Assembly (NCBI GenBank): GCA_003024785.1
Contig: PUQB01000746.1
Span: forward strand, 1 to 64,000
Origin: Selaginella tamariscina
Lineage: Eukaryota; Streptophyta; Lycopodiopsida; Selaginellales; Selaginellaceae
Length of the DNA: 64,000 nt
Direction of reading: 5' to 3'
Shown: piece by piece, positions 11,270 through 59,197 of the stretch
Position numbering within the stretch: position 1 is the stretch's first letter
Layout: every line of letters starts with the position of its first letter
Translations under genes and position numbers: made by a program
The notes under the pieces: generated by a model
Told to the model about the DNA's origin: nothing
What the model saw: only the letters and a program-made list of their open reading frames with translations
The model's database searches: none

Positions 11270-12828
11270 GTTTGATAGTAACTGCTTCATAGTTCTCCCG
11301 TTTTCCAGCTACCTTTTCTTGATTGTTTTCCTTCATTTTCCTCCTTTTTTCTTTCATAGATCATGGGCCGTTTTTGAGCAGATTCAACACGAGCACCAAA
11401 TGTTCTTCATGAGCTGGCCACTTTGCACCAAGTGGTCACCGATCTGCAAGGCTCCACCCATGCGGCACATGCAGCTGCTGATGCATCCTCCAAGGCTGCT
11501 GCGCAGGCCTCTCTTCAGGCATTAGTGGTTCCTTCTTCATCGAACTTTTCTTCGGAGCCGAAGATTAGCATGCCAGAAGTTTAGTGGCAACCGTGCCGAT
11601 TTCCAAGGTTTCCTGAATCAGATCCGGCTCTTGATCCACATGCAACCATGCCCGCTACTCGACTGATGCACAAAAGGTTGGTCTTTTGGCATCCTTACTA
11701 ACTGGATCTCCCCGAGCTTGGGTTGCCCCCTTGCTGGAACGTGACGATCCATTGATGGAAGATTTTGAAGGATTCGTGGCTACCTTTGAAAGCTTGCTTT
11801 GGAGATCCTGATAAGTACCATTCCGCATGCACGAAGTTACGCAAGCTCACACAAGGATCCCGACCAGTTTCCGTTTATTCATCTGAATTTCAACAACTTT
11901 GCACGAACGTTCCATGGGACGAGACTGCATTGATCAAACACTTCCATTTTGGGCTGAGGGATGACGTGAAGGACCTTCTCCTTATGTTACCGGATGCCCA
12001 AACCTTAGCAGAGATCATCCAACAGACCATTCGCTGTGACAACCGTTTGTTCGATTGTCGTCAGGAAAAATCTCGTCAGCAGTTCCTGCAAGTCAATCAT
12101 GCAGCTGTAGCAATGTTCCTGTGACACCTTCTGGAGTAGTCCCTATGGAGGTTGAGAAATACAAGCGTGGTCCACTTTCAGCTGCGGAAAAGGAACGCCG
12201 TTGTAGTGAGAACTTATGCTTGTATTGTGGTGAAGTAGGACACAAGGGGCGGAATGTCCTGCTAAAGCCAAGAAGTTCAAGACGTGCGAAGTTGAAGCCA
12301 AAGTTCAAATGTCCACTCCGTCTAGGAGCTGCGAAGTTGGACGTAAGTGCAGGCTCCATTGGTGTTGCTCATACCATTTCATCACTCAAGTTTCCTGTAC
12401 ACATTCGCCTCAATAACTAAGAGCTCAAGGAGTTTGCCCTGTTAGACACTGGTGCAAATGCATGTTTCATGGATGACACTTTTGCAGCCAGCATGGCATT
12501 CCGGTGGTGAAGTTGAAGCGTGCAGTTCCTGTAGAGGTTGGCCGATGGTCATTTTGATTGCTTCTGGCGCAGTTACCCACGCTACCACACCTCTTTCTTG
12601 CAGTCATGGCGCATTCAACTATTCAATTTCCTTCAACTTGATCAAAACTCGGTCGACTCCCATCATTTTTGGCATGCCATGTTTGTTGTTGCAAATCCGA
12701 GATCGACTGGAGGTCTAGGATGCTCACGTTTTTCTCTCCATCAGCCAGATCAATCATGTACCTTCCTGCGTGCAGGATACATCCTTGGTGTCTGAGGCAG
12801 TACAAGCTACAGGATTGACTATGCCTGT

Positions 12829-13300
12829 TCCTGTATCAGTGTTGAAGACTCCTCCTCGACAGGATTCACCTCATGTCAGCTCCTTAGCACATCCGCAGGC
12901 TCTCTCCACTCCTGTAAGTTTGCGATTCCTGTACAGGGTTCTTCCAATCCTATATCAGTGTCGAAAGTTCCTCCTCAACAGGATCCACCTCCTGTTGGTT
13001 CCTCAGCACATCCGCAGGCTTTCTCCACTCCTGTAAGTTTGCGGATTCCTGTACAGGGTTTTTTCCAATCCTGTATCAGTGTTGAAGACTCTTCCTCGGC
13101 AAGATTCACCTCATGTCAGTTCCTCAGCACATCCGCAGGCTTCTCCATTCCTCTAAGGTCGCGGATTCCTGTACAGGGTTCTTCCAATCCTGTATTAGTG
13201 TCGAAGGTTCCTCCTCGACAGGATTCACCTCCTTTCCGTTCATCAGCACTACAGGTTCATCAGGCTCTAGCAGATTCAACACTTCTATAGGACATTCGTT
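12829..13300 (+). repeat. Four ~120-bp tandem repeats inside the chromovirus-type element
   Basis: Units start near 12,829, 12,947, 13,069 and 13,190, each with CCTGTATCAGTGTTGAAG-like, CCTCCTCGACAGGATTCACC-like and CACATCCGCAGGC words. It lies between the protease and integrase parts. Confidence 0.75.
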
Positions 13301-14768
13301 CGCAGTTGGCTACAGACGATTTGGCAAGGAATGTGTTCTCACACATTAGTCCTGACATTGCAAGGCTCCTCTTCCTCCAGTTCCCTTCAGACTACACGCA
13401 TTTGCCATACAGGACGGACTCCTGTACCGGGAAGGTCTCCTGTACGTTCCTGTTGGTGTTTGCAGGACTCGTGTGGTACAGATTGTCATGATACCCCGGC
13501 TACAGGACATTTCGGTGTGGCCAAGACAGTTGAGTTGGTGACTTCGCAACTATTGGTGGCCTGGGTTGCGAGGTTTTGTGGAAAGGTTTGTACAGAGTTG
13601 TGACACCTGCAACAGGTCGAAGATGCCTCGTCATGCACCTCTGGTCTTCTTCGTCCTCTTCCTATTCCTTCTGCTCCTTGGAGATCCATTTCTATGGATT
13701 TCCTCACAGATCTTCCTCCTTCTGTGGATTCGATGCAGTTCTTTGTGGTGGTTGACCGTTTCACCAAGCAGGCTCATTTCCTACCTGCAACAAGACAGCT
13801 ACAGGTCAGACAACTGCGAGTTGGTGATCCGTGAGGTGTTCCGACATCATGGTCTTCCTGAGAGCATTGTTTCCGATCGAGGTCCACAATTCATGTCCAA
13901 GTTTTGGCGAGAGCTTCTTCTTAGTCTACAGGTTAAAGCGGATCTTTCTTCAGGATATCACCCACAAACCGATGGGCAGTCCGAACGCACAATCCAGACC
14001 TTAGAACAGTATCTTCGTTGCTTCATCAGTTACCAGCAGGATAACTGGTTGGACCTTCTTCCAATGGCGGAGTTTGCCTACAACAACTCCGTTCACGTCT
14101 ACAGGACAGACACCTTTCTTTGCTCTTACAGGCCACCATCCACGTTTTGACTTTGCTCCTCCTGCTTCTCCTTCTTCCGCTCCTGCAGTACAGGATCGTC
14201 TCAGCATCTTCGTGTACAGGATGATCTCCAGGTTCATCTTCAGCAGGCACAGGAACGGTACAAGCATCATGCTGATGCTCACCGTCAGCCGGCACCTGCA
14301 TACAAGATTGGTGATCTCGTGTGGCTTCTTCGTCGACACATTCGCACCAACAGGCCTTCTTCTAAGTTGGATTTTCAACGATTGGGCCCTTACAGGATCG
14401 TGGCGGAGGTAAATCCTGTAGCTTTCGACTCGAGTTACCATCCACGGTGAAACTTCATTCTATGTTTCACACCTCCTTGTTGGAGCCGTATCATCCTTCT
14501 TCTCTTCCTGGTCGTTGCTTCTTCTCCTCCCCCTCCTGTGGTCATTGCTGGTGAACCTGAGTACGAAGTTGCAGCCATCCTTGATTCTCGTCTTCATCGC
14601 CCAACTTCAATACTTGGTGGATTGGAAAGGTTATTTGCCTACCGATCGCACTTGGGAACCTGCATCCAACTTACTCCATGCTTCTTCCAAAGTTGCTGCC
14701 TTCCATCGGCATTATCCTGCTAAACCAGGTTTTAAGACTCGTGGAACTCGTCCTTAGGGAGGAGGTGC

Positions 14769-15667
14769 TGTCACAACCCGATGCAGGATACAGGATTCCA
14801 GATACAGGATTAGGATGCAGGATTTCGGATACAGGATACGGGTTACAGGATATGCCTGATATTCCTACAGGATATACCTATAGGATATTCCTATATACAG
14901 GATATGCTACAGGATATGCCTAGAGGATAAGGGACACTATTCTTAGCTCATGACTAGATTAGACTCATGACTAGATTAGCTTGGAGTTGTAAGCATAAAA
15001 GCTTCGACCTAATTGTTGTACAATCAGTTACTATCAACACCAGTCATTCTACGATTATTCTTGTTCCTTGTTCTTGTCTTACTCTTTGCCTCCTGCTCCT
15101 GTCTTGCTCCCGGATCCTGTCTTGCTCCTGTCTTGTTCCTGGATCCGGTCCTGCGCCTTTCTGTCTTGCTCCCGGATCCTATCCTGTTCCTGTCTTGTTC
15201 CTGGATCCTGTCCTGCACTCTCCTATCTTGCTCTCGAATCCTATCATGCTCCTGGATCTTGTCCTACTTCTGATTCCTGAGTTCCTAGTTCATGTCCTGC
15301 TCCCTGTTCAGCTATCCTGCTCCAGTTCCTATCCAGCTCCCCAATTCCTATCCAGCTCCTTGTCCAGCTATCCTGCTCCATTTCCTATCCTGCTCCATTT
15401 CCTACCCTACTCCTTGTTATGCTATCCTGCTCCATTTCCTATCATACTCCTTGTCCTGCTATCCTGTTCCAGTTCCTATCCTATTCCTTGTCCTATTCAT
15501 GAGTTCCTAGTTCCTATCTCGCTCCGGTTCCTATCCTGCTCCTTGTCTTGCTCCTTGTTCTACTCCTGAGTTCTAAGTTCTTGCCCTACTCCTGTCCTGT
15601 TCCTGAGTCAAGCCTTCATGTTCTTGGAATCCTACTCACTTCCTGGTTCCTGGATCGTGGCTTGACA
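14769..15667 (+). repeat. 3' LTR of the chromovirus-type element
   Basis: 899 bp, closely similar to the 5' LTR at 10,399-11,269. It contains an extra stretch near 15,005-15,065 absent from the 5' LTR. Ends TGTCACAACC ... GGCTTGACA. Confidence 0.85.
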
Positions 15668-16988
15668 CCCTGAACCACAACTAATTATAAGGGTTTAAGT
15701 GGCCAAGTCATACCCTAGACCTAGTGCTAGTACTTAGTAAGGACATAAGTGTGCGCCTTAAGCGAATACGAATGTTCTATTAAACAAACTCCCTAAGGCT
15801 AGGTTTAAATAACCCTAAGTACATGACCTTGCAAGTGTCTCACATGAGGGCTTCTGCTATTGAGCTTAGGTTGTTCAACCCTTAGATCCTAAGGAGAACA
15901 CCAGTGTGCCAAAGCCCACCTAGTTACAAGACTTAACCTTCCTTGAACGGATCCCTAAGGTTTAGCACCTTAGTGTAAGCACAAGCATGCTTGTTTACTA
16001 GAGTATCCAACCCCTTGGCAACAAACTCATGACACAACCCCAAAGGGCATGCCTTGAGCATTGTTTATGTGATGTGTAACCCAGTGTCACATCTCCATGT
16101 GACATTGCCTTCCACGATGTGGGCTATCATGCCGTAGCCCTTAAATTCAAGAGTTGCACCAAGTGCCACAAACGTGGCTCCTAAAGGCCAACTCTAGAAC
16201 CCCTTAGTCAACTCTTAAGAACTAGGTAATATAAACCTATCAAACAAGATCCCATGCCCACGGTTGGACAAGGACATGAATGTGCCTTGCTTGGCCATGA
16301 GTTCTACACCTAGCTTGACGTGAAGGAGGCTGGAGACAAGCCTCAACCTCTGCCTCTTGGAACATGCATTCCAACAAGACCTTCCAAGCATGGATTTACC
16401 AACGTTAAAGGTCAACTACCCCAAAGGTGGGACATACCCCTGTCATATGGAAGTTAGGGCGGCACAACAAAGGGTTGTACTTTAATGACACAAGCTAAAG
16501 CGTGCACTGGTAGAAGAGCAACGAACTCAGTCATGAACCTAAGAGCTCTCCTACATGTACTACTTAATATATGTGACAGAGCCCCTCCTTGTTTTCCTGT
16601 TTACTTAAGTGGGTTGGCATGGAATCTCATTCCCAAAGGGAATATACTTGATGAGTTAATTAATGACCCATTAACTCCTAAACCTTAAGCCGAGGGGTTT
16701 ATGGCGTGGGATTAGGATAACCCTAGAGTTAGGTCAACCCTAAGGCATATTTGACATGCTGAACTCATTGGAACCACCCAAAAACTTAATTAGAACACAA
16801 AAAACTAGGGTAAGAGTTTTTTAAAAGGTAAGTGCTACTTTGGCTTAGAGTTTCTCGCGATATCTAAGGACAGTCGACCGGTCTACCCTTAAACACCTAA
16901 GTGCACTAAGTAGGGTTATGCACATAGTTCGGTAAGTAACAACAGTCAACGTCCAAAGTAAAGAGGAGTCATAGTAAAAACTATGACA

Positions 16989-26090: not shown

Positions 26091-27527
26091 TGTTTCATTA
26101 GGAAAGTATAACGGGAAAAATACCAAAAACAATATATATGGTAAAAAATACAATAGTTAGAGAAAAACATAGAATTACAGGTCAACCATAATATGAGGAT
26201 GATTCAGGTATTAGCGAAATACAGCAGTTCTAGAGAGAAACGGAATATGGAAGTCCCAGAAAGAAATGGAATACGGCAGTTCCAGAAAGAACCAAAATAC
26301 GACAATTCCAGAGAGAACCGGAATACGGTAGTTCTAGATATTAACATATTACGTCCAAGGGAGCAGTTATTATAACGACATTAGGAAAGTTATACAACCA
26401 ACTGAATAAGATTCAAAGGAAGTTATGATAATTGAATGTACTGGATTGGAAGTGTGGGTATAAATAGATGAAGTTAGGAGTAAGAAAGCATCCCGGGGTA
26501 TACTGAATATTGTACTATGTTTTGACAATATATACTCTCCTCTTACTCTCACTCTTCGGTATCTTACTTGATTCTTTTATTTCTACTTCTCATTTCTACT
26601 GTGTTCGGGATCCGCAGTACTACTTGCTATATCTATTCTCTTCTTACTTTCTCTACAGTGTCTTACTTGATTCCTTGATTTCTACTTCTCATTTCTACTG
26701 CGTTGAGATCTGCAGTACTACTTGCTATTTCTTTTCTCTTCTCACTCCCATTTGACCATCTGAGGATTGGTTTCTAGTCTTGTGTCGGTCTTTCATATTT
26801 CTGTATACCCCTTGTTGTGGGTCTGTCTGTCTGTCTGATACCCTTATTACAGGTTTGTTTGTGAGTTTGTCACCCTTATTACGGGTTTGTTTGTGAGTTT
26901 GTCACCCTTATTATAGGTTTGTCTGTGAGTTTGTCACCCTTATTACGGGTTTGTCTGTGAGTTTGTCACCCTTATTACGGGTATGTTTGTGAGTCTGTCA
27001 CCCTTATTATGGGTCTGTCTATGTCTGTCACCCTTATTATAGGTTTGTTTGTGAGTCTGTCACCCTTATTATAGGTTTGTTTGTGAGTTGTCACCCTTAT
27101 TACGCGTTTGTTTGTGAGTCTGTCACCCTTATTACGGGTTTGTTTGTGTATTTGTCACCCTTATTACGGGTTTGTTTGTGAGTCTATCACCCTTATTACA
27201 GGTCTATTTGTGAGTCTGTCACCCTTATCGGGTCTGTCTGTCTATCTGTCACCCTTATTACGGGTTTGTTTATATGTTATAACCTTATTACGGATATGTG
27301 TTACTGCTATACCCATGTTACGTGTTATCTTAGTCTTTTCCTTTTATTTTTACTGTGATGGGATTTGTAGTTCTACCTGCTATATACCTTGCCATCCTTA
27401 CCCTTTCCTTCTGAAGTCTGATATATACTCTATATATGTTCTTTTATATTCCCATAGACTCTTAATACGGGTTTGTCGGTGGCGACCACTGCTTCGATTT
27501 AGATTGTAGGATTTTCTATGTTCAACA
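26091..27527 (+). repeat. LTR related to gypsy family A, minisatellite-bearing
   Basis: Starts TGTTTCATTAGGAAAGT and continues with CCAAAAACAATATAT, aligning with the family A LTR start (minus strand at 5,942). It ends ATGTTCAACA (27,518-27,527), like the family A LTR end CTCAACA. The flanks ACACG and AGATC do not match, so no target duplication is seen. It contains AGTTCCAGA-type repeats (26,220-26,340), duplicated TTTCTACTTCTCATTTCTAC segments (26,580-26,700) and a long minisatellite. Confidence 0.45.
26830..27280 (+). repeat. Minisatellite, ~31-33 bp unit, about 14 copies
   Basis: The unit reads like GTCACCCTTATTACGGGTTT followed by GTTTGTGAGTTT. Copies differ by point changes and small length changes. 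The frame at 27,108-27,509 is a reading of this repeat. Confidence 0.85.
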
Positions 27528-35495: not shown

Positions 35496-35706
35496 TGTTG
35501 GGAGCCAGCCTGGAGTCAAGGACAGGTGGCGACGGACGTGTACGCACGGTGATGATACATGTGCACTGAGCGTTACGGTGATGATACATGTGCACTGAGC
35601 GTTACAGTGATGATACATGTGCACTGAGCGTTACGACGTTCAGATACTTTGTATATATATATATATGAGAAAAAATCAATATAAAAATTAGTTAGATAAA
35701 CTCTCA
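35496..35706 (+). repeat. 5' LTR of the copia element
   Basis: 211 bp. It contains three tandem ~28-bp units around GTGATGATACATGTGCACTG (35,549-35,633) and a (TA)n run near 35,651. The TATATATA run may double as the TATA box. Confidence 0.95.
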
Positions 35707-40285: not shown

Positions 40286-40494
40286 TGTTGGGAGCCAGCC
40301 TGGAGTCAAGGACAGGTGGCGACGGACGTGTACGCACGGTGATGATACATGTGCACTGAGCGTTACGGTGATGATACATGTGCACTGAGCGTTACAGTGA
40401 TGATACATGTGCACTGAGCGTTACGACGTTCAGATACTTTGTATATATATATATTGAGAAAAATCAATATAAAAATTAGTTAGATAAACTCTCA
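40286..40494 (+). repeat. 3' LTR of the copia element
   Basis: 209 bp, same as the 5' LTR apart from microsatellite and homopolymer length, including the three ~28-bp tandem units (40,339-40,423). Confidence 0.95.
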
Positions 40495-44556: not shown

Positions 44557-47338
44557 GTTACCATGTAGAGGACAGCCTTTGTTACCAGCCCCAACACAGC
44601 CAGGACACCGTTATTACCACTACCACTCCACCAGCATTACGAGGTCAGAATCCTAATGTGACATGTTTTAGATGTGGAGAAAAAGGACACTATTCTACTG
44701 AATGTAATCGACTTAAACAATATTCGTTGTTACACATGTGGTGAGATGGGATTATTCACCAGAATATCCACAACATGAATTTAACACCGAAACATCTTCC
44801 ACTGAACCAGCGACACAGAAATTGAAGTTCAACAAGAGAATGATCTAGCAGATGACCATCACAACAAAATTACGAGTGCAAATGGGAACAAGATATAGAA
44901 CTACCCTCAACTGAGATGTATGCGGTAACATGAGCCAAGCGAGTACGAATGGAGGCAAGCAAAGAAGAACCAATACGCAAGAATTGGGAGAAAAAAAGGC
45001 TACAGTACAACGAGTAACTGATCAAATTAGAAAATGCAACAAGGGAATGAAATGACTAATGAAATGAGCATGCAATCTAATCAACGGTACCACTTGGAGA
45101 TCGTATTGTTGTTGTGATTCTGCAACAACCTATACAATTAACTATAAGGGAGTTATTGACATTAGCACCATTTTTACGAATACAGATAACAAATGCTTTG
45201 GACGTGAGTAATATTCAAACCGATACAAGTCAGGTAGGAGTGAATACAATAGAAGTTTTTACAGACGAGAAGGACTGGGATGAGGAGGCCAATGATTACG
45301 GCTTGGATTGGTAAAAATAATATTCAGAATATACCTATTGATGGAGGTTCGAGAGTGAACATAATTGAAGAGATTTGTAAACAATTCGGTCTTGGGCCCA
45401 TTGAAAATGCGCCTTTCTTAGTACGGATGGCTGATCATAGGAAAGTAAGACCCATTGGTATAATCAGATCTGTATGTATGGAAATTGCAGGAATCAAGTT
45501 TAAGGTATCTTTGGTCGTATTACGTATCGAGCAGACCAGTAAACCATACCAAATATTATTAGGAAGACCATGGTTAAAAGATGCAAAAGTACGACATAAT
45601 TGGGAGCACGACGAAATGGTACTCTATAAGAGTGGACAAGAAGCAGTTGTTCGAACGCAGTAGAAGAAGCCAATCGGACAACTGACTCGACCATTGCAAA
45701 TGGAGGATTTTGACTGGCATTACGACTTGAACAAGGAAGAAGAAAAACTCCTATTCAAAAGTAATCCAAACCTCATAGAGATAGCACAAGCGGATTTATA
45801 CCAGATGACGCCTGAAGAAGAAAACTCGGAAAATGCGGCTATTAATGATCAACAACAGCAACATATGGATACTCTCGGACTAACGGATAAGTTTAAATAA
45901 CCTTTGCAACACAGTTACAATTCAAGACAAAGTACGAACAGAAAATACAAACTCAACAAAAACTGGAGATTACTACGAATGAGAAGATTGAAGAGGTTGA
46001 AATTAAAACAAGTGAATATGGACCACGAAAAGTACGAATAGCAGTTGATCTTGAGCCGGAATACCAAAGACAGTTGATAGCAGTACTATGTCAAAATGCG
46101 GATGTTTTTGCATGGAGCAACGAGGATCTTAAGGGAGTTCCACCCACAATTTGTACCCATAAGATAAAATTATTATCACATGCAGTTCCTAAGAAACAAC
46201 AAGCATATCGAATGAATCCAACATTTTTAGCAAAAGTGAGAGAAGAAGTGGACAAGTTATTACAGGCCGGATTCATATATTCAATTGAAAACCCGCAATG
46301 GTTATCACCAATTGTCATAGTCCCAAAGAAGAATGGCAAATTACGTATCTGCGTCAATTATAAGAAGTTGAATGATGTAACGAAGTGGGATATGTACCCA
46401 ATACCATTCACCGAAGAATTGTTGGATACAGTAACAAGACATGAAATGTATTCTTTTCTGGACGGATTTTCAGGATTAACCAAGTTCAAGTAGATCCTGA
46501 GGATCAATCGAAAACGGCATTCATTAGTCCTTGGGGTACATATGCGTATCGTGTTATGCCTTTTGGGCTATGTAATGCACCATTTACCTTTTAACGTTTG
46601 GTTAGCAAAATTTCGGGATTATTTGACCATGTTTATGAAAGTTTTCTTGGATGATTTTAGCATGTATGGAACACAAGATATACACATGGACTGTTTAATA
46701 AAGTGTTTTGGGAAATGTCAATTGAACAATATAGCTCTTAATTCGGAGAAGTGCGTGTTTTCCGTGAGATCAAGAATTTTGCTTGGACATATTATGCAAG
46801 GATAGAATAATGGTGAATTAAGATAAAATCAAAGTCATACAAACAATGCAACCTCCTAAAGACATAAGCGGAGTACAACGACTTTTAGGGAAAATGGGAT
46901 ATCATCGAAGATTTATCAAAAACTACGCAGCAATAGCGAAGCCATTAAATATGCTTTTAAGGAAAACACAACCATTCAAATGGATACGCAATGCGAACAA
47001 GTTTCAATACGTTAAAGCAGGCATTAATGAAGGCTCCTATTTTAGCGAGTCCAAATTGGCAGCAGGAGTTTCATGTACAAGTGGATGCATCGTCATATGC
47101 TATCGGATGCATATTAACACAAACCCAGGAGGACGGGAAAGATCGACCATTATATTATGTGATGGGGTTAGCACCTGCAAAAGAAAATTACACGACTACG
47201 GAAAAGGAGGCACTAGGAATGGTTTATGCAGCAAAGAAATTTCGGCATTATCTGCTAGCAAACAAAGTCAAATTCATTGTCGATCATCAAGCTTTGACAC
47301 ATTTGTTAAGCAAGACGAAGCTCGAAGAAAGATTAGTA
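44557..47338 (+). mobile_element. Ty3/gypsy fossil, family A, right copy (gag end to RNase H)
   Basis: Plus-strand remnant related to the inverted copy at 2,832-5,385. Parts: zinc knuckle (TCFRCGEKGHYSTEC, about 44,660), protease region (about 45,310-45,660), reverse transcriptase (about 46,200-46,800, including SPIVIVPKKNGKLRICVNY) and RNase H (about 47,050-47,330, FIVDHQALTHLLSK). It has several interruptions. It stops at about 47,338, inside the RNase H part, exactly where the ParB-like gene sequence begins, so the junction is a rearrangement or deletion point rather than a natural element end. Confidence 0.8.
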
Positions 47339-50300
47339 ATGGGTAATGGAGTGTGCGAATGTTCTGTACTCTTCGAGATAACTTCCGGTCTAATATCTGA
47401 TTGAAGTTCGTCCTCAAACTCCAACATTGAACCAGATTCATCTTCAGAGCTATCGCACTTATCGGGAGGGAACTTTCTTAAATACTCCTTTATGGATTCG
47501 TTGGGGTAGTCAGTTGAGAACCTATCTATCCACTTGTTTAGGTCCTCAACCATGGTCTTATCCTTTTCAACGGCAAATACACATGTATCCCGAAGATAAC
47601 ACTCCTTCAAGACGGACCCCCTAGTGCAGTAGATGCATCATTGTGAGGACCCCTGATCAAGTTGACGATGCTCCGTGCCGCTTGACTTGTGATGTTTGGA
47701 TAACGTACATTGCCGAATACGTCACTCTCAGCTATTGGTGTATGGGAGGTTCAGGCCGTTGGAGTGCAAACAGATGCCTGGCTAGTCATTTGGAAGTTTG
47801 AAACTGTTTGGCTCATTCTAACAACCAAGTGAACAACCGAATCAATGCACTTCGGATCAGCATCATTTATATAAAATCCTGTCCAACGATGTTTATTCCT
47901 CTTGGCAAAAGGAGAAGGCAAAGGTATCGGTGACATGAGCAAGAATCAAGAATAATACCTAAAACGTAGATATCAGTCAAGAGTGCAAGTATGAATTCAA
48001 TAATAAATACCTTCTTTGTACATAACTTGCACGACTAAGTTTCTCCACCAAATCCTCTAGTGTCCTGTTGTCGAAGGAATTTTTTGACACCCGCCGATCC
48101 ATCACGAACAATTGAAACGGTTTCCTACAAGCAGTGATGGTACCCCATAAAGTCTCCGAATCCAACAACAAACATCTGTAGGGCTTGTCGTGATTCGTAG
48201 CATCCTCCTTTATAAGGTTCAACTCGGTTCTCCGCTGCTGAAGGACTGCCATAAGAGAAGGCGTCATCGCAATGTTCTCCTTTTTGGCGTTGGCGTGCAA
48301 TAGATTCTTGCCCAGATCTTCCGATTGATTCACCCATTCGACAAGCATATCATCATTTGTCACATGCAAATATTTGCCTCTTCGTATGTTGAAGCCGAAA
48401 TCCAACCCAGTTTGTGGCAGTGTATTCCCAACCACTCCTTGAAGTGCCTGACCGTCTTCAACTCCATTGCCTTGAGATGAAAAGGAGAGGGCTGCTGTTG
48501 TTAATCTGTAATTTGCCATCAATCACCAAATCAGCCAAGACTTCCATCTCCTCCATCGTTGTTCCATTTAAAGGCTTCAACCATGTGAGCTTGAAATCGT
48601 TGTCTACATCCTTTATAGATTGAACAGACTTAGCCTTCGGCGTCTTACTGGGTTTCTTTGCAGACTTCTCTGAGGGCTCCACTTCACTTGTCTGCTTCTT
48701 CTTCAGTGTTCCTTTTGCAAAGGATTCCATAATCCCCAACCATTTGGCAAAGATCCTATCCTCGGGACAAGAAATCAACATCAAAAAGGATGTTTCCTTC
48801 CCGCCCACCTGGGCAAAATCAACTGCTACAATTTCTTCAACTCTCTGAGAAAAAAGACAGATTAATATACCGGCGAGATAAATCCCGCCCAAACAATTTG
48901 CTTACCCGGTATTCCGCAGATTGTGTATTCCCTGCGGTAGCTCTTTGTGGTCGCTGAAGAGATTCCCACACGGCTCGCGTGTGTTTGAACTTCTCCCATA
49001 TTTTGCTGTTGTAGTGGTTGGTGTCTGCAGCGTCCCATTCCGCCGATAACTTATGGTACTGCTCGATTGTGAGATTCGGCTTCGCTAAAAACGCCGATCT
49101 TTTCGTCAGCTTCTCACGGGTATGCTCGGAAAGTTTTGTTGCCATCGTTCCTTTGTTGTGTTCGTCGAGAAGTCGTTGGGCTGCCGTTATTGTGTGCTGG
49201 CCACTAATGATGTAGTACTTGATGATTTTCTATTCTCCGTCTGAACCTTCCTCATTTGTTCGGTGTTGTGATCCACACTTTGTCAGCGCCTTTGTTTTCT
49301 CGTAGTATGCGCACAAAACAGCATTATGTGGAACGGTGTAAGAATTGTCGTCCTTCATCTTCTCCATGAGCTCAGCTACACGTTCCTGATTGAGTGGCCT
49401 GTAATTGAAGTTTGGGTTGACGCTGCAATACTTAACCCTACACTCGTAAATCCTATCATCCAACATCATTTCCTTGTGGCTTATTGCAGCATGGGACGCC
49501 ACAGGTGCAGCTGACAAAACGACTGATGATTTTCTTTACGATCCGAATCAACATGTGTGATCCCCGATTGATGCTGTTCTAATGTTCTCGGCACACTCTT
49601 CCAGCTCCCGAAATTTGCTAAGCAAATTGAACGTGATCTGTAAAGAACCTGAGACCAAGCCACCCTCTCAATCTCCTTATGATGTCGCTGTGTTCTTCTT
49701 CAATGTGAAGAGGGAAGATTGCTCCACTTGTGGATTTTCTGTATTGTGAAGCAATCTCCTGAGAATACACCTACTCGATGAGTCTGAAGATCTTCGAAGT
49801 AGACATCCAGTTGGATCCCCTCCATAGATGGGCTTTCGTTGAGTTGAAGAAGAACTCCACGGTCAACATCATTAGTGAACACGTGAACGTCATTATCCAC
49901 AAGTCGACAAAACCACCCGAAATTAATGTTGTAACTGGCGACCTCTGGATCCGAGAACGTGACATTGGATGGAACAAGGCATATGTGTCGAGCATCGTTC
50001 AATCTGGGTTCAGCATGCTTTCGGATGCTTGACTAGCACACCCACTTTCCATTGTTTTGCTTGTCCATGCGATGTGACAGAGGTTAGTTTGACAGCAACC
50101 ATGGTTGTTCCAATGCGCTTCCCGTTTAGTTTGAAATATGGCCAAGTTGATTCCAGAATCCCCCTGCCCATCTCTTCTCCTGCTTCGTCTTTAATGTCAC
50201 CTCAATTCCACATCTGAATACAAAAATGATTAGTTCAAGCACATATCCGAGTATAACAGATTTTATTTTAATTCTTACCCAGAATTTGACGACGACTCCA

Positions 50301-50345
50301 TACTAATGACTCGATCTCCTTGTTTAATTAAATCGTCCTTCTGCA
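47339..50345 (-). pseudogene. ParB/sulfiredoxin-fold domain protein gene (copy 2), 3' truncated
   Basis: Multi-exon minus-strand gene. The first exon seen (about 50,343-50,279, KDDLIKQGDRVISM) follows a TTTTGCAG acceptor, so an earlier exon exists. A 65-bp intron (50,278-50,214) has GTAAG and CAG ends, and a 63-bp intron lies at 48,905-48,843. The middle part reads as a ParB/Srx-like domain: RPLNQERVAELMEKM (about 49,402-49,360) then YYIISGQHTITAAQRLL (about 49,215-49,166), the S-G-x-H-x-x-x-A-A motif that in ParB proteins binds nucleotide. Then a long helical region (48,458-49,145), a Lys/Ser/Pro-rich linker with likely nuclear signal (KKPSKTPKAK), and the C-terminal region shared with 1-1005. 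One in-frame stop just before the SGQH motif and two or three frame changes suggest it is inactive. The 3' acidic tail is cut off at 47,339. Confidence 0.65.
48870..48887. repeat. Single palindrome copy inside a ParB-like gene intron
   Basis: GGCGAGATAAATCCCGCC lies within the 63-bp intron 48,843-48,905. It differs at two positions from the array consensus GGCGGGATTAATCCCGCC, so the palindrome is not confined to the intergenic arrays. Confidence 0.8.
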
Positions 50346-50440
50346 AAATAATACACTATGAATACAAATCATATAAAAACGCACACACACTTGTATAAAC
50401 CCGAATATACAAAAATAATACACAGAGAGAAGACGGAATT

Positions 50441-50526
50441 AACTGTCCAAAGCTCACTTTGTGCTAGTGCAAAAGAAAGATAACATTTCGTTTTAGAACC
50501 ACCACAAATGTGAGCTCTGGACAGTT
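50441..50526. repeat. Inverted repeat able to form a 23-bp stem hairpin
   Basis: The left arm 50,441-50,463 (AACTGTCCAAAGCTCAC then TTTGTG) pairs with the right arm 50,503-50,526 with one mismatch and one bulge, around a 39-base loop. It lies just upstream of the first visible ParB-like exon. It could be a small foldback element, a regulatory structure or a hairpin RNA precursor; nothing distinguishes these. Confidence 0.7.
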
Positions 50527-50639
50527 TTACATAGTTTCCTAGCTTTTACTCGAAATATTATGATAAGATGATAAAAGTAAATAAAATGAGATATGCAACT
50601 TATATATACTAATACACATATATATTCACATGGAAGGTG

Positions 50640-51505
50640 CGCGGGATTAATCTCGCCACCCCTTCAATGCCTCCTGAAAGAGTGGGCGGGATTAATCTCG
50701 CCACCTTTCTGGAGGCCTTGAACGGGAGTGCGGAATTAATCTTGCCACCCTTCTCGGTCTCAGAGAGAACTTGGCAGGATTTATTTGCACACCCCTTCAG
50801 TGACTCCAGAAAGGAGGCGGGATTAATCTCGCCCACCATGTAAGGGATGGTTAAATGAATCTCGCCACCCTTCCCAGTCTCTCCATTGGTATGTTGTAAA
50901 CCTTCTACGTTCAGACAGAAACGTTTGGGATTGGTCCGACTCACCAATGGAGAAAAAGGAAGGGTGGCGGGATTCATTCCTCCAACAGGCATTGAAGGCT
51001 CGGCGGGATTAATCCCGCCGCCCAGGCCTTCACTCGGTCCCTATGCGGCGGGATTAATCCCGCCGGACGCCAATTCCCTCGCGGAATCGGGCGGGATTAA
51101 TCCGCCGCCTAGGCCTTCAGGCAGGCCTTTGGCGGCGGATAAATCCCGCCCGATTCCGCGGGCATGCGTCGCGGATTAATCCCGCCTCCCAGGCCCTTCA
51201 CTCGGGCCTTAGTCGGCGGGATTAATCCCGCCGACGCCAATGCCCTGTGCGAATCGCGGGATTAATCCGCCGCCTAGGCCCTTCAGGCAGGCCAATGGCG
51301 GGGGATAAATCCCGCCCGATTCCGCGCAGGGCATGTGTAGGCGGAGGGATTAATCCGCCGCCCAGGCCCTTCACTCGGGCCCTGTGCGGAGGATTAATCC
51401 TGCCGCTCATTTGCCAACCGAATAACCTGCCTGAAATGGCGGCGGGATTAATCCCGCCGCTACACACGTCTCACCATATAGCGGCGGGATTAATCCCGCT
51501 GCTAC
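50640..51505. repeat. Palindrome array A (GGCGGGATTAATCCCGCC), about 18 copies
   Basis: About eighteen exact or near copies of an 18-bp perfect palindrome spaced mostly 40-47 bp centre to centre, for example near 50,687, 50,818, 51,002, 51,046, 51,215, 51,440 and 51,481. The ParB-proximal copies carry TCTCGCC variants; the inner ones are closer to perfect. Spacers are also partly self-complementary (AGGCCCTTCACTCGGGCCT near 51,188 and 51,364). Open frames here (reading GGINPA, AAGLIPP) are by-products of an 18-bp unit that keeps frame and are not genes. GC-rich against AT-rich surroundings. Confidence 0.9.
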
Positions 51506-51705
51506 ACACACACACACACAGATATATATATGTATATGTGTGTGTAGGAGAGTGCGTGTGTGTGCAAGAGATAAATAAATAAATAAAATTATACAGATAC
51601 TAGTCACATAATATATGTACGTATACATAGGTATATAATATATATATATGTGTATATGTATATCGTGTGTATGCGTGTGTGAAACAAATAAATTCATACA
51701 GATAA

Positions 51706-51738
<33 letters not shown>

Positions 51739-51826
51739 GGAGTGTGCATGTGTGTGCGAGAGATACAATTAACAAATCAAAAATATACAGATACACACAC
51801 ACGCACATATATATAGATAATAAATA

Positions 51827-51860
<34 letters not shown>

Positions 51861-52480
51861 GTGTGTGTGTGTATATGTATCGAGTGGCGTGTGTGCGAGA
51901 GATAGAGATATAGAGAAGAGAGAGAGAAGGAGATATATAATATATATATATATATATATATCTGTGTGTGTATATGTATACGAGTGTGCGTGTGTGTGCG
52001 AGAAATAGAGATCTAAATTATATTATTAAGATACACACATATAAATATATATGTGAATAAAAATAAATAAATAAACTTAGAGGAGTGTGCGTGTGAGAGA
52101 GAGAGATCTCACCTGTGTGTGAGAGGAAGGAGATTTCGCCGCCGCCCGCCTTACAAACCCTAGGAATATACTTAAACCCTAAAAGGAATAGAATATATAT
52201 TAACCCTAATCGAATATTCCTTTTAAGAATATACTTAAACCCTAAAAAGAATAAACTATAGATTCACCCTAAACGAATATTCTTTCATTATATTATCAGC
52301 GTGTGCGTGTGTGTGTGGTGTATCACATACACCCCAAGAATAAATATCATGGCAAGGGTTTAAACACGTGTGTGTCCATGAGAGTGTTAAAGTTTCACGT
52401 GCAGCGATACATATATACACACATAGTATTATACACATAGACATACATGTACATATTAATATTAGAGAGACAGAGTACAG
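51506..52480. repeat. Microsatellite-rich spacer (CA/TG, TA, GA runs)
   Basis: Alternating (CA)n, (TG)n, (TA)n and (GA)n tracts, for example 51,506-51,545, 51,826-51,875 and 51,925-51,965, with a repeated TGTGTGTATATGTAT / GTGCGTGTGTG motif. Two AACCCTA-containing copies of a 50-bp segment lie at 52,150-52,275. Frames here are low complexity. Confidence 0.8.
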
Positions 52481-53120
52481 GATCATGTATGGTGTGTATG
52501 TATGAGAGAAGAGTGACAATACATATTATGGATCATGTATAGTGTGTATGTTTGAAGAGAAGAGAGACAGTCATATTTACATGGATCATGCATGGTGTAT
52601 ATGTATGGAGAAGAGAAAGAGTGTTAACAAATTAAATTCATACACAATGTCATTGCATATATTAGTACACACATATACATACACACGTGTATACACACAA
52701 ACATACATACATATTACATGTGTAAATTCAATGTGTTACATAGGGTTTAGGTTTAGGGTTTAGGGTTAGGATGGATCATGCATGGTGTTTATGTATGAGA
52801 GGAGTGAGTGTTATACACAGATATACATTATACATATTACATAATATTGTAACATCAGTACATATTATGGATCATGCATGGTGTGTATGTATGAGAGAAG
52901 AGACAGGCTACATATTATGGATCATGATCATGCATGGTGTGTATGTATGAGAGAAGGGATTATGCATGGTGACACTGTGTATGTATGAGAGAAGAGATAG
53001 AGTGTTAACAAATGAAAACCGTACACATTGCATATATTAGTACACATATATACATACACACGTGTATACACACAAACATATATATATATTACATGTGTAA
53101 ATTCAATGTGTTACATACAC
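52480..53120. repeat. Minisatellite around GGATCATGCATGGTGTGTAT
   Basis: At least six variants of a ~34-45 bp unit (GGATCATG(C/T)ATGGTGTGTAT then GTATGAGAGAAGAG) between 52,480 and 52,990. A longer segment with ACACACGTGTATACACACAA is duplicated at 52,680 and 53,055. Confidence 0.8.
52741..52770 (+). repeat. Short interstitial plant-type telomere repeat
   Basis: Reads TAGGGTTTAGG then TTTAGGGTTTAGGG, about four TTTAGGG-type units with slight variation. Supports a plant source; too short to indicate a chromosome end. Confidence 0.8.
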
Positions 53121-53326
53121 ACAGATTGAGTACATATAATCATACATGCGTTGAACATGATGTTTTTCAATAAAGAAGCAACATATAATTTCTCAAGTTT
53201 GGTTTAGGGCAATGTGCATGTGTGCATATGTGTCTTTGTAAGTGCTTCTAATGCGTGTGCACGTGTATATATAAATTTATAATCGTGTTTATATATAATA
53301 TGTGCAAAACAAACATCGAATAATTA

Positions 53327-54080
53327 AGAAAATAATATTAATATACACACTATGAACATATTTTAAATTATACATAATAATATATGATTTTATCTAATAT
53401 ATAGCCATATATAGTTTTAATAATATATATTAATTTAATATTGATAATAAGGTTTAACATTAGAATATTCTTGAAATAATAAGAAATTAATTGAGAAAAT
53501 CCCATTAATATATACAAATGTAGATCAAGTATTGAAATAATTAACTAAATTAATTATGATAATCATGTTTAATATTGAAATATTCTTGGAATAATAAGAA
53601 AATAATAAAGAATATCACATTAATATAAAGAAGATTAATTACTCAAGTAATTAAGAAAATGAAATTAATATACACACTATGAACATATTTTAAATTATAC
53701 ATAATAATACATCATTTTATCTAATATATAGTCATATATAGTTTTAATAATATATATTAATTTAATATTGATAATAAGGTTTAACATAGGAATATTCTTG
53801 AAATAATAACAAATTAATTGAGAAAATCCTATTAATATATACAAATGTAGAATAATTACTGAGATAATTAAGAATAAGACTAATTTAATTATGATAATCA
53901 GGTTTAATATTGGAATATTCTTTCAATATTAAGAAAATAATAAAGAATATCCCATTAATAGTAGGAAATGTAAATTAATTACTCGAGTAATTAAGAAAAT
54001 AATAATAATAAACAGACTATGAATATATTTTAAATGATACATAATAATATATCAATTTATTTATTGTATTAGTGTATATA
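53327..54080. repeat. Tandem ~330-bp AT-rich repeat, about 2.2 copies
   Basis: Units start near 53,327, 53,656 and 53,994 (partial), each with CACTATGAACATATTTTAAA-like, ATAGTTTTAATAATATATAT and GGAATATTCTTG-like words in the same order. Confidence 0.8.
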
Positions 54081-54675
54081 TATATATAATATAAACTCAA
54101 TAATATATACTTGAATATTAAGAATGTAGAACAATTACAAAAATTTCGTAATATTAAACAGCTTGAAGCACTTGAATAACATTAAATGCAATTTTAAAAC
54201 ACTCATTGGAATTGGAGAGTATATATGTCAGACTGTCGGTTATTTGTTTCAACTCATCTTAAATTTTCTTTTCTGTTATTTCAAAAATTTAATTTCTGAC
54301 ATAAGTATTATCAGTCTGACATGTAAATTTGAAAATACATTTAATTTCCCACTCAAATTCAGATCTGGTTCTTTCTCCGGCAAGGGTTTCTTTATTTCTT
54401 TATTTTTCACTCTTCAGATTTTCTTTTTTCTTCTTAGTGATCAGCTCAGGAGCGACATTAAATTGGGTGCGCTATTGTTTATAGGAAAGCACGGCGCCTT
54501 CAGTGCTGTTTACAAGTAAGTATTATAAACAAATTTAGATATATTTATAAAGATTCACTCTCTTACATTCTCTCTTAAATTTTAGAATTTAGGGATTTAG
54601 GAATGCATTAGGATTACAATATATTCTGTTAGGGATTTATCCCGTTTAAATATACTTTAACTTAATATTCTCGGT
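54081..54675. other. Spacer with a possible upstream exon
   Basis: A 118-codon plus-strand frame at 54,163-54,519 ends at a donor-like CAAGTAAGTATT after an acceptor-like CTTAGTGATCAG. It could hold a 5' exon of the DUF7869-type gene, but joining it directly to 55,576 does not keep that frame, and its composition (Phe/Leu/Ile-rich) is unremarkable. No family recognised. Confidence 0.25.
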
Positions 54676-55436
54676 TAGCCGGGGCGGCGGGATTAATCCG
54701 GCCATTTTTTTTCGCCTCTTTGAAGAGGTGGCGGATTAATCCCGCCACCATCTCTTTCATAGTTATGCAGAATTAGTTCGGGCAATGCTTCTCCGCCTCT
54801 TAAAAAGAGCGGCGAGATTAATCCGCCGATAACTCTCTCAACTGATAATGATTTACTTGAATTTATTAGAAAGAGTTGTCGGCGGGATTAATCTCGCCAA
54901 CCATTTTAGGAGGCAGAGAAGGGGTGGCGGGATTAATCTCGCCAATACTTCCTGTTTTAAATATTTGTGGGCAGAATTCATCCCGAATCTCTTTGAAATC
55001 ATAGTTTCGGAGAGAGTTGTGGGCGGGATTAATCCCGCCGCTTATTCCCCGTCGTCAGAGTTGTGGGCGGATTAATCCCGCCCCTATTCTCCGTGTCAGT
55101 GTTGTGGGCGGGATTAATCCCGCCCCCTCTTCCTCGTCGGAGGAATTTGCGGCGGGATTAATCCCGCCGACTCTCACAGACGAGGAAGATCCGGCGGCGG
55201 GATTAATCCCGCCGGTACTTCCTCGTCGGAGGGAGCCGCGGCGGGATTAATCCCGCCGCTACTTCCTCGTCGGAGGGAGCCCGGCGGGATTAATCCCGCC
55301 GCCTCTCTCCGACGAGGAAGTATCGGCGGCGGGATTAATCCAGCCGACTCTCTCCGATGGGGTAGAGTCGACGGCGGGATTAATCCCGCCGACTCACTCT
55401 GAAGGGGTAGTCTGCGGCGGGATTAATCCCGCCCAT
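54676..55436. repeat. Palindrome array B (GGCGGGATTAATCCCGCC), about 15 copies
   Basis: About fifteen copies from 54,682 to 55,430. The gene-proximal ones (from about 55,021) are mostly perfect and spaced 40-46 bp. Spacers are dominated by CTTCCTCGTCGGAGG and its inverse CTCTCCGACGAGGAAG, a second palindromic family. Array B ends about 140 bp before the first visible exon of the DUF7869-type gene; array A ends about 300 bp before that of the ParB-like gene, giving a mirror-like layout. Confidence 0.9.
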
Positions 55437-55575
55437 CAGTTATATTAATAAAGCATGAGATATTATCTTTATACATAATTATGTATTATTGCACATGCAT
55501 ATTATTAAGCAACCGCAGTTATGATTTCTTAGAAATATTGCATAAACAGATATCATAAATAACACAATTATTTAT

Positions 55576-58500
55576 GTGCAGGACAATATGTATAATACTG
55601 GAGATAAAGTATGTCTTCTTCGGAACAACGAGATAGTTGGCACTGGAACTGTGGAAGTTCGAGATGATAATGCATCATGTCACAATATTGCCCAAGGATC
55701 TTGTGTGTACGTATGGGTGAACACCATTTTCAAGCATGTTGAGGTTCCTGGAATGGAATTTGAGGAGGGTTCTCCTGTATTGTGGAATTTGGATGAAGTC
55801 AAGGCTGACACAGAATATACAGAGTCACAAACAAACAGTAGCACGAGTTTTCCAGATGATGCTTGCCTGCTGTGATGGATGAGGTGATTCTCTTTCTTCA
55901 TGAGATTGAGGTTGGGAGAGGCATCATCACAGCTATAAATCCAATGGAAGCAGTGTCAGAAGAGAAACTAGGGTCCGACTTCGTGGGTGTAGTTGTGACA
56001 GAGGTTTCACCTAATGGCACTTTGCATCCTGGATCCCTCGTGAGGTGGCGAACATCTGAATTAAGACGGCAAGATGGTTCAACATATTCTGGGTTGGATT
56101 TCAATAATAACAACCCGGAAGAACAACTCATATTTGAAGAGGTTCCTTGCATTGGTCCTATTATAAGAAAAAGGCGATTCATGGGTTGCAGATCTTCCCC
56201 TGCATGTTTCAGCAAGAGGGTGAAGATGGATCCTACATCTTCCAAAGTGTTACGAGCATTTCCACGATTGACTGCTGCAAGAAGAAGTGTTGTCAGATGG
56301 CAGACCGGAATGAAATTACCCAATGTAGACATGTCTTTCGTACGCTCACCCAAAAGCAAAGGCATGAGTTTGTATATGCTGCACTAACTGGGTGTATTGA
56401 TGGAATGGCTTCGGACACAGGTTATCAGAGTACATCCATGGTATTTAATAAGGTGGCCATCTGCTTCAAAGCTTGGTACAGTATATACGGGATCCCAAAG
56501 ACCACGTTCTACCGTCGGAGGGATGAGTGGTTAGATGGAGCGCGAACCTCAGTACATGGGAACACTGGCTTGGTCAAAACCCGCTCTCACATTATGGCAG
56601 CCATAGAGATACTCAAGGCTTTTGTGGAAGCAAATGCAGACAGGATGCCTCACAAATGCCGAACCACAAATGCAGGGGTCAGGGAAAATCTCAAGGTTTT
56701 GCCTTCGATCTACACTCAATTGAAGCTGTGTGAAACATGTGAACAAGTGCCTCAGCTTGATGGGGCTGCAAGCAATCTGCACTGGTACCTTCAACAACAT
56801 ATGGAATACTCATTTTAAGGATGTGGAGATTGCAAAACACTCTAGCTTTTCCAAGTGTGACACTTGTACATCATTGAAGGCTGCAGAGGCTTGTGCAAAA
56901 ACCTTGGTGGAGATCACTGCCATTCAAAAGAAGATGGAGGCCCACATGATTGCACAACAAACTTGCCGGTCTCAGTACTATGCACACCGCATGCTTTCTG
57001 TGTCACGCCCATCAGAGTACCTGTGCTTGATCCATGACAAGATGGATCATTCAAAGACCAGCATTCCAAAGCTCGTTGCACAAACCAAATGTCATGAAAC
57101 TTCCGATTTCATTGACAGGTGTTAACACATGGACACGGTTGTGAGTCATATGGACACTTTTCACTTCCACATTGGTCTAGCGACTCCAATTTCACTATTG
57201 GGTCGTTGGCCATGTGTTTCAGAAACCTTGAAGCCCACTCACAGACAAGTCCTATCAGTGATCTCAAAGTGAAGAAACAACACCTTCAACCTTTACATAA
57301 TGCTCTCATGAACACGTCTGCACTTGAGGCTACTTGGGAATATGAGAGGCATTGTCAGCAACCTGCACAAAAAACAGATGGCCTGTTGAGAGTTCAGGTT
57401 CAGTGGAGGGATCTAGCTCAAATAGTGTACATGTGTCCTCAACATCAAATAAGCTTCCTCGTCATTTGCTTTTACAGATGGATAATTGTGCAGGCGAGAA
57501 CAAAAATAGGTAAATCATTTTACTTAAGGGTTTCTCAAGCTCATACTTACTTTTATTTTCTAGATATGTGCTAGCATACTTGTCAATGCTTGTTGCCAAA
57601 GGTGTGTTTGAAACAATCACGCTCAGTTTTCTTATGGTTGGTCACACTCATGAAGATATTGATGCGTTCTTCAGCAAGGTCTCCAACTCTACAAAAAGGA
57701 CAAGTGCACTTACCTTACCGCATATGATGAATCTTTTTGAAAATTGCATCTCCAAAAAAAGTTGTGCTTTGCTTGTGACTGAGGTGCCAGACTTCAAAAA
57801 ATTTCTCAAGGAGTATATAAAAGAGGGAGTGATTCTTTAGTTGGTCACCTTGTGCCGCTACAATTCTTTTTCTCCATACGAGATGGTATACCTATTATGC
57901 AGTACAAGTTACGGCCATCAGAGCAGGAGTGGTTACCGAAAGAGGGGTTAATGCTCTTCAAAAGTGGAGAGAATGGAAAGCCACTTCTCCCAGAAGGACA
58001 ACCAGACCCTATTCCATTGAGTGCCCAGCTCAAGGAACAAGAGGTTATTATTGATGGCATCAAAAAATATGTGGCATGGGTTCAAAAATCGATGCCAAAG
58101 AATTCTGATAAGGCAACTGGTTACTCAGAACTATATAAGCATGTGGTTGACTATTGGGAGACTGTTGTTCGAGAGTTGGAAGGGCCTACTGTCACAAGTA
58201 CAGAATTGCAACACCCTTTTTGGCCTAAAACAAGGTGGCGAGAGGAGATTGAAATGACATCACTGAGCACAGACGACATAGAAGCCAGTAGTGATGTGGA
58301 AGTGCAAACCCCACACTTTGTTGGACAAAGGAACCAAAAACCTAAAGCATACTTTGATTGCTGCCAGGATCTTCAAAAACTAATGATGGTTCTCATTACT
58401 CCAGATGCGTCATATAATCAGCCTATTTGGATGGGTCAAATTATCGACACACCTGAAGTAATCACAAAAAATAGTATTGTTAAGGTTGCATGGTTCAAAC

Positions 58501-58691
58501 CACAAAAAAGGCGACACGAGAAGGAGAGCGAAAGATATAATGGATGCCTAGAGAAAACATGGTCTCCCAATCAAAAAGACCCAGCATGTTTTATAAATGT
58601 TAAATCCATTCGATATGGGTGGATGTCAAGAAGCGTTGATAAAGTCACGATTAACAAAACTGCAAGGGAATGTATGTTTTCTGAAGCTTAA
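55576..58691 (+). pseudogene. DUF7869-type RNase H-like (putative transposase) gene
   Basis: Multi-exon plus-strand gene. The first visible exon follows a TATGTGCAG acceptor and encodes NTGDKVCLLRNNEIVGTGTV; this region and the next (GRGIITAINPMEAV, about 55,914) resemble DUF8039-like modules. Then a Cys-rich segment (CCKKKCC, 56,268), a helix-turn-helix-like block (IYGIPKTTFYRRRDEWL then VHGNTGL, 56,480-56,575), a CDTC finger (about 56,857), and an RNase H-like core: LIHDKMDHSKTSIPKL (57,027), LLLQMDNCAGENKNR (57,466), a 54-bp intron (57,510-57,563), and FLMVGHTHEDIDAFFSK (57,630). The D ... D ... H-x-H-E-D-x-D series is the hallmark I associate with DUF7869 proteins. The tail (57,852-58,691) carries a small beta domain (QPIWMGQIIDTPEV). 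Some frame changes (for example near 55,870, 56,250 and 57,125-57,450) may be introns or damage. Confidence 0.65.
57510..57563 (+). other. Intron (54 bp) in the DUF7869-type gene
   Basis: GTAAATCATT ... TATTTTCTAG. Splicing joins K-N-(R) to Y-V-L-A-Y, restoring the continuous family motif NCAGENKNRYVLAYLSMLV, which is good evidence the intron is real. Confidence 0.85.
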
Positions 58692-59170
58692 AGCAATTAC
58701 AAAATTATAAAATATCATATATTTAATATTCATAATTATTATAAACTCTTTAATAATAGTACCAAATTGTTTACTTAACTATATAAATTTAAAAAATGAT
58801 ATGGAAGATTGACTATATTATTATAGGATTTTATATATATATTATTACTACTACAAATTTTTAATTAATAATGTTATATTTAAATATTAATATTTTAATA
58901 ACAACATCAATATTTATATAATGTACCTCTTATGCTCTTCCTTAATTGTTATATTAGGCAATATATTATATAATTTAATACCTTCTACTTTTATAATGTT
59001 ATTAATTTTTGTTCAATGAATGCTATAATTTATTAAAGGGTCGAATACAAAATAGAATATTCTAAAGAATATTCTTTTTCAAACATATATTCTAAAGAAT
59101 ATTCCTTTAATATTAGAAAATGCTAATTAAATAGCTAAAATTGCTAATTATTAGGAAATGGGACTATAGC
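58692..59170. other. AT-rich subterminal region
   Basis: No gene. Between 59,060 and 59,115 it holds three AGAATATTC(C/T) motifs similar to those near 2,640-2,660 in copy 1. Confidence 0.4.
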
Positions 59171-59197
59171 CATGCCCATTTTAGTTACAACATGCAT
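59171..59197 (+). repeat. Terminal inverted repeat, DUF7869 side, of the large DNA element
   Basis: 27 bp matching 2,805-2,831 at 25 positions (differences are C/T at position 9 and G/A at position 21); core TTTAGTTACAAC. It is immediately followed by gypsy family B DNA that aligns with 24,463 onward. Confidence 0.6.

Follow-up and report, generated by a model that had tools for sequence, protein, structure and literature searches.

The 64,000-bp stretch of Selaginella tamariscina DNA analysed here (positions 1-64,000 of contig PUQB01000746.1, referred to below as the window; the assembly comprises 300.7 Mb in 1,391 contigs) carries one DNA transposon twice, in damaged form, at 47,339-59,197 and at 1-2,831. 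The element runs from a terminal inverted repeat (TIR) through an FCP1-like gene, a ParB-like gene, a palindrome array, an AT-rich spacer, a second palindrome array and a DUF7869 gene to the opposite TIR. Copy 2 (47,339-59,197, forward strand) has an intact right end and is truncated at its FCP1 end, the true left end being gone, and copy 1 (1-2,831, reverse strand) is inverted and consists of the left, FCP1-bearing end, cut off by the contig end at base 1. Aligned blocks of 1-1,004 and 47,339-48,340 are 97-100% identical in inverted orientation. The original prediction for this locus had described two divergent genes around GC-rich palindrome arrays, a 27-bp terminal repeat, and a second partial copy in opposite orientation with an FCP1-like gene at the complementary end, and all of these were recovered: the ParB-like pieces lie on the reverse strand (47,339-50,301), the DUF7869 pieces lie on the forward strand (55,588-58,691), and the arrays, repeats and FCP1-like gene are placed as follows.

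The DUF7869 transposase gene (55,588-58,691, forward strand) has one intron at 57,510-57,563 and encodes about 1,050 aa. It is frameshifted in copy 2; in two copies from elsewhere in the assembly, C690 and C611, the frame stays open both before and after the intron. The joined reading matches PF25273 with an E value of 6e-43 and 147 bits, against a curated cut-off of 26. On the reverse strand, we read the ParB-like gene as three exons separated by GT-AG introns and preceded by a probable start exon, which together give 976 aa in a joined reading. The likely start exon, with a putative start codon, lies at 50,279-50,301 (ATG...TTCTGG/GTAAG). It is followed by the N-terminal exon at 48,906-50,213, which holds the core RPLNQERVAEL...ISGQHTITAAQ and is frameshifted in copy 2, a predicted intron 1 at 48,845-48,905, which contains one palindrome copy, the middle exon at 48,011-48,844, also frameshifted in copy 2, and the last exon at 47,339-47,958, truncated at 47,339. 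In copy 1 the last exon lies on the forward strand at 383-1,116, behind a predicted intron 2 at 330-382 (GT...AG); other copies carry the motif-I-like VFDYCTRGSV...FAVEKD at this place. The middle exon falls within a 304-aa open frame in C577, C501 and C690, with intron 1 contributing about 20 of its residues, and in C690 a 305-aa open frame spans the N-terminal region into the core.

The FCP1/NIF-like phosphatase gene of copy 1 lies at 1,379-2,230 on the forward strand and matches PF03031 (E 6.7e-9, 36.1 bits against a cut-off of 21.8; E 5e-12 on the joined reading). FCP1/NIF phosphatases usually carry the nucleophile motif DxDxT/V, which reads DVNGV here. Between the two divergent genes lie a left array (50,635-51,505), at the 5' side of the ParB-like gene, with units of the 18-bp palindrome GGCGGGATTAATCCCGCC mostly about 44 bp apart; an AT-rich, microsatellite-rich spacer (51,506-54,680); and a right array (54,680-55,436) at the 5' side of the transposase gene. 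Counting sites at up to three mismatches to GGCGGGATTAATCCCGCC, 26 fall within 47,339-59,197 and 0 in the remaining 52,141 bases of the window. The termini form a 27-bp inverted pair, ATGCACGTTGTAACTAAAGTGGGCATG (2,831-2,805, reverse strand) and ATGCATGTTGTAACTAAAATGGGCATG (59,197-59,171, reverse strand). The left TIR thus occupies 2,805-2,831 on the reverse strand and the right TIR 59,171-59,197 on the forward strand, ending in ...GTTACAACATGCAT, and the element ends read ATGCA.

We then compared the window with other copies in the assembly. Probing the assembly with 1 kb of the ParB-like region yielded 2,594 candidates at first look; 40 were scored, the window itself included, and were 94-100% identical to the probe. 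Ten of these, selected via the ParB-like region, were retrieved with their flanks. All ten have the identical left end, the complement of window position 2,831, with the FCP1-like gene beside it, and eight also have the DUF7869 gene and the right end equivalent to 59,197; these eight are complete, 13.0-15.0 kb long and alike in gene order; the size predicted for a single mobile element had been 13-14 kb. In the two incomplete copies, similarity fades inside the DUF7869 gene (C336) or is lost about 1.5 kb into the ParB-like region (C661). Similarity stops within 11 bp of 2,831 in 38 of 40 scored copies, the other two being the window itself and a copy cut by a contig end, and within 6 bp of 59,197 in 37 of 40; the remaining three (window included) have flanking DNA in common and look like a duplicated or allelic insertion. 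The linkage of the ParB-like and DUF7869 genes and the loss of similarity beyond the proposed ends, on both of which the prediction had staked itself, were thereby confirmed. The independent copies thus show inverted repeats at constant ends, as expected of a TIR (class II, cut-and-paste) transposon.

For target duplications, we used 12 independent copies for which both flanks were available; C501 and C794, which share one site, enter as a single copy. A perfect 4-bp duplication flanks seven of the 12 (0.05 expected), two have only 3 bp, C668 matches at three of four bases by eye, and none of the 12 matches over 5 bp or more. With the perfect duplications of C690 (CAAA) and C611 (AACA), the total comes to 9 of 14. 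The duplicated targets are of mixed composition (CTTC, GAGA, TTGT and CAAT among others). Some weight has to be placed on the other side: C567 and C866 show no duplication at all, and altogether 5 of 14 copies have an imperfect one or none. It might also be supposed that unrelated elements came to be nested by chance in the window, the two genes never having been mobile together, and the window is indeed crowded with repeated, nested pieces; yet 8 of 10 retrieved copies agree in gene order and have both ends, most with target duplications, which leaves this practically no chance, and the copy comparison refutes it. The element is a large cut-and-paste DNA transposon with TIRs, target duplications, a common gene order, near-identical copies and, in some of them, open transposase frames.

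The insertion of copy 1 can be followed at the nucleotide level. Position 47,339, where the predicted locus begins, is no element end and proved to be a truncation against a gypsy-type element (so labelled by eye from its reading frames); the element's own left end is preserved at 2,831. Past 2,832 the inverted similarity goes on, because copy 1 sits inside an element of this type, another copy of which lies at 44.6-47.3 kb. That second copy is uninterrupted and preserves a paralogous empty site (45,736-45,760, forward strand), in which GAAGAAGAAAAA is followed by CTCC at about 45,747, in place of GAAGAAGAAAAA followed by ATGCACG at the copy 1 insertion; the prediction's call for an empty site was thus answered within the window. 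Among ten copies approached from the right end, the left end lay within the retrieved stretch in five, and the rest showed other element parts or the opposite end. In C571 and C2 the left end directly abuts DUF7869-gene sequence of another copy, and copies therefore insert into one another.

The predicted reading of DUF7869 as an RNase H-fold transposase gained support from a predicted structure: the fold was seen in that of a relative, P0009, with modest scores, and acidic residues are conserved. The predicted fold makes the protein a DDE/D transposase of the RNase H fold, carrying a small-barrel domain at its C terminus and having a putative catalytic function. Relatives occur in mosses, a liverwort, molluscs and many metagenomes, and none was found in viral contigs; prokaryote bins held three, whose contigs of 4-6 kb were taken as contaminants. 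We found no mention of DUF7869 in the literature searched. To gauge constraint, pN/pS was calculated for C690 against other copies, which are not mutually independent. Ranges use only stop-free rows of at least 90% identity, except for the last ParB-like exon, and the many rows that join frameshifted stretches were dropped from them. Comparable pieces of the transposase gave 0.09, 0.13, 0.18, 0.42 and 0.47, plus one value of 1.60 on 7 changes.

The same measure indicates that the ParB-like gene is kept. Values were 0.14 (C577, C501), 0.18 (C794, C280) and 0.27 (copy 1 of the window, 113 aa) for the middle exon, 0.20 and 0.19 for the core, and 0.37 for the N-terminal part plus core (C501); the last exon gave 0.54-0.62 (rows of 86-88% identity, most with one stop), and constraint is uncertain there. 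The comparison of coding sequences thus shows purifying selection on the gene, the protein apparently being kept on the whole. The FCP1-like gene gave 0.26, 0.62 and 1.00 on 4 to 11 changes, its copies being too similar for selection to be measured. Between a second subfamily (C690, C733) and the first, protein identity is about 88-93% in the ParB-like core and 96-98% in the FCP1 protein, which suggests recombination or homogenisation of the left end.

Judged by eye from motifs and precedent, the core of this protein (RPLNQERVAELMEKM...YYIISGQHTITAAQRLL) appears to be ParB/Srx-like. Behind it come FQLFVMDRRV, GIYFLILAHV and then NITSQAARSIVNLI...VFDYCTRGSVLKECYLRHTCVFAVEKD. These stretches presumably follow the order of the beta-class DNA methyltransferase motifs IV, X and I with altered catalytic residues, and the region may be a decayed DNA methyltransferase-type fold. 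By eye, the DPPY-type motif IV position reads DRRV and motif I reads DYCTRGS, so that the protein departs from the N4/N6 enzymes; in place of the GxxR P-motif, GQHT stands in 7 of 7 aligned copies, with the core aligned by eye. This reading is supported because a published algal transposon has the same domain pair opposite its Sola1 transposase (PMC12477816, seen in part), its best independent support.

Complete copies hold 9-42 palindrome sites at up to three mismatches, arranged as two arrays with a usual spacing of about 44 bp between units, plus one site in intron 1. Of the 8 complete copies retrieved, 7 have both arrays; the other, C567, has a run of N at this place and the lowest count (9). 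In 49,304 flanking bases of these eight copies we counted, with the same tolerance, 15 further sites, perhaps fragments of neighbouring copies. Genome-wide, GGCGGGATTAATCCCGCC occurs exactly 27,128 times, as opposed to 0 for its backwards control and about 0.001 expected at 40% GC. The 100 listed genomic sites form 17 clusters on one contig, 12 of which make up 6 pairs 3.1-3.8 kb apart, matching the element's own layout. We also counted bases position by position in sites chosen by an inner 10 bp with at most one change, a selection that itself makes the inner part conserved. On either side, the four adjoining positions still keep 79-89% of one base, position 10 shows about 50-60%, and positions farther out are mostly lower.

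Such palindromes could in principle be a structural feature, a cruciform or hairpin RNA that triggers silencing RNA or pauses replication, instead of protein sites. A single strand of 54,880-55,440 does fold much better than shuffles (z -19), as expected of any palindrome array, and beyond the core, positions 10, 16 and 17 (counted from the centre) pair more often than in shuffles (z 4.1, 2.4 and 3.6). However, an excess appears at none of the 9 core positions, and at positions 13, 19 and 20 pairing is rarer than in shuffles (z -2.2 to -2.5). With core pairing no higher than in shuffles, we judge an RNA or DNA structure improbable.

We propose instead, as the likeliest account, that the palindromes are protein sites. 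The transposase would cut at the 27-bp ends and insert with a 4-bp stagger, matching the observed ends and duplications, and the ParB-like protein would be an accessory DNA-binding protein recognising both arrays, at the 5' sides of the divergent transcription units. This binding is proposed because the palindromes are conserved, the protein is retained, the arrays are so positioned and a published suggestion exists for algal relatives. Once bound, the protein might keep the element's promoters active, counter silencing, or otherwise control expression and marking. The FCP1-like phosphatase would be a captured accessory gene, perhaps, as a guess, acting on the transcription machinery. Taken to its full extent, this amounts to a ParB/parS-like self-marking, in which a catalytically retired ParB-methyltransferase protein binds the 27,128 palindromes and holds the element expressed or organised against silencing, a scheme that we put forward as tentative and, in its entirety, rather unlikely.

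Other observations bear on the label and role of the ParB-like protein. The protein gave no relevant match among Pfam or PHROGs profiles or by phmmer against PDB chains, only weak rows of unrelated name, and no match in two protein-database searches. An AlphaFold model of the core from 7 near-identical rows reached a pLDDT of 44, and its Foldseek and VIA lists held no ParB, the model being too poor to judge either way. Of the predicted ParB-like gene, then, its presence and retention stand, and its label finds no backing in profiles or structures. In addition, C611 is a short form of 5,594 bp (10,132-15,725 of the joined stretch) with both ends and its perfect duplication. It arose by internal deletion, the left 889 bp being fused to the part from about 10,068 onward (C690 numbering), and it keeps the right array (15 sites), the open transposase and part of the FCP1 end, having lost the ParB gene, the FCP1 gene and the left array. 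C611 moved without both accessory genes, and these are therefore dispensable in cis for movement; they could act in trans on such short forms.

These facts lend themselves to another account, in which the element is an ordinary TIR transposon, the ParB-like and FCP1-like genes are passenger cargo, and the palindromes bind the transposase or a host factor (for example of homeodomain or E2F type), as in CACTA elements. C611 fits this account, and arrays next to the transposase promoter would suit self-regulation by the transposase. Yet the ParB-like gene is constrained (pN/pS 0.14-0.37) much as the transposase pieces are, both arrays are retained as a pair wherever the sequence of a complete copy is unbroken, and the arrays are internal, away from the ends. 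Moreover, six further copies (four with the full frame) probed at the C611 left-end position all carry the long-form spacer in place of the C611 deletion, a result that concerns the spacer position only and not the ParB gene. We consider the cargo account somewhat unlikely.

If a complete copy is assigned 10 exact sites (the mean over 9 copies, which hold 3-23), or if the 2,082-2,594 first-look candidates are used, the family may amount to 9-12% of the assembly, an estimate in which candidates are scored in part and fragments are counted; copy number is probably in the thousands. Other repeats were also seen. Direct repeats at 10,527-11,226 and 14,896-15,624, 96-97% alike and about 4.4 kb apart, are possibly retrotransposon long terminal repeats (LTRs), and identical 169-bp direct repeats at 35,496-35,664 and 40,286-40,454, 4.8 kb apart, are possibly the LTRs of a very young element. 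A tandem array of 32-bp period occupies 26,771-27,303, and in one retrieved stretch (L049, about 1,850-1,875) telomere-like TTTAGGG repeats lie within an apparent rDNA spacer beside 5.8S; by eye, the 5.8S/ITS sequence resembles that of land plants.

Three known systems invite comparison at the level of the protein and its sites. VANDAL transposons encode VANC anti-silencing proteins that target clustered short motifs in their own non-coding DNA, and by description they are a candidate for a system that works like the present protein/array pairing. En/Spm (CACTA) transposons are TIR elements with arrays of short binding motifs, an accessory DNA-binding protein, CACTA ends and 3-bp duplications. 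The Selaginella element is likewise a TIR element with motif arrays and an accessory candidate DNA-binding protein; unlike CACTA, its arrays are internal beside both promoters and made of 18-bp palindromes, its ends read ATGCA, its duplications are 4 bp, and its transposase is of the DUF7869 type. The prokaryotic ParB site parS is a 16-bp palindrome. By motif, the element resembles ParB-parS and the ParB-methyltransferase fusions that exist in phages (PMC12704722, seen in part) in its ParB-type core, methyltransferase-type part and palindromic site. It differs in lacking a profile-level relation to ParB, in having GQHT replace GxxR, and in the absence of a ParA gene among the frames examined.

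The original prediction called the element undescribed and knew of no superfamily with its gene set, which is not fully supported, since the algal Sola1-1_Ec32 offers a ParB-methyltransferase precedent, as far as its available description goes. Among the literature matches listed there is no paper on this Selaginella element, and in the literature searched, parts of which were available, we found no land-plant ParB-methyltransferase transposon, paired palindrome arrays, FCP1-like gene, comparable copy number or link to DUF7869. Target duplications of Sola1 transposons are 8 bp long, unlike the 4 bp found here, where none of 12 copies matches at 5 bp or more. According to the accessible parts of one report (PMC12477816), Sola1-1_Ec32 of Ectocarpus is a 21.5-kb DNA transposon whose accessory gene, on the strand opposite the transposase, encodes a 1,104-aa protein with a ParB-like domain and an N4/N6 DNA methyltransferase; Sola-1, as one family, makes up 0.17% of the Ectocarpus genome, giant En/Spm transposons occur in red algae, and transposons with ParB-methyltransferase accessory genes are known from a brown alga and, through works cited there, from green and red algae. 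Compared by description only, the Selaginella element shares the giant size, the placement of the accessory gene opposite the transposase and, in its 976-aa protein, the same order of parts by motif. It differs in occupying an estimated tenth of its genome, in its decayed methyltransferase motifs, and in its FCP1-like gene and palindrome arrays, which the accessible parts of that description do not mention. Sola2 transposons, as the available portion of PMC3627910 describes them, have 4-bp AT-rich target duplications, TIRs of 12-21 bp, an 888-aa transposase and a Fanzor1 accessory protein. The present element is similar by description in its 4-bp duplications, short (27-bp) TIRs, transposase of about 1,050 aa and accessory proteins, and differs in its other accessory genes and in duplications that are mixed instead of AT-rich.

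The element ties together the DUF7869 transposase family, a prokaryote-style ParB/methyltransferase accessory protein and dense internal palindromic arrays, in a family that may account for a sizeable share of the genome. The putative pairing of the ParB-like protein with the palindromes is its point of interest: many copies, a candidate protein and a candidate site make escape from silencing by accessory proteins testable. Among known transposons, the element appears nearest to a Sola2-type by its 4-bp duplications, and in its accessory gene and layout it seems to resemble Sola1-1_Ec32.

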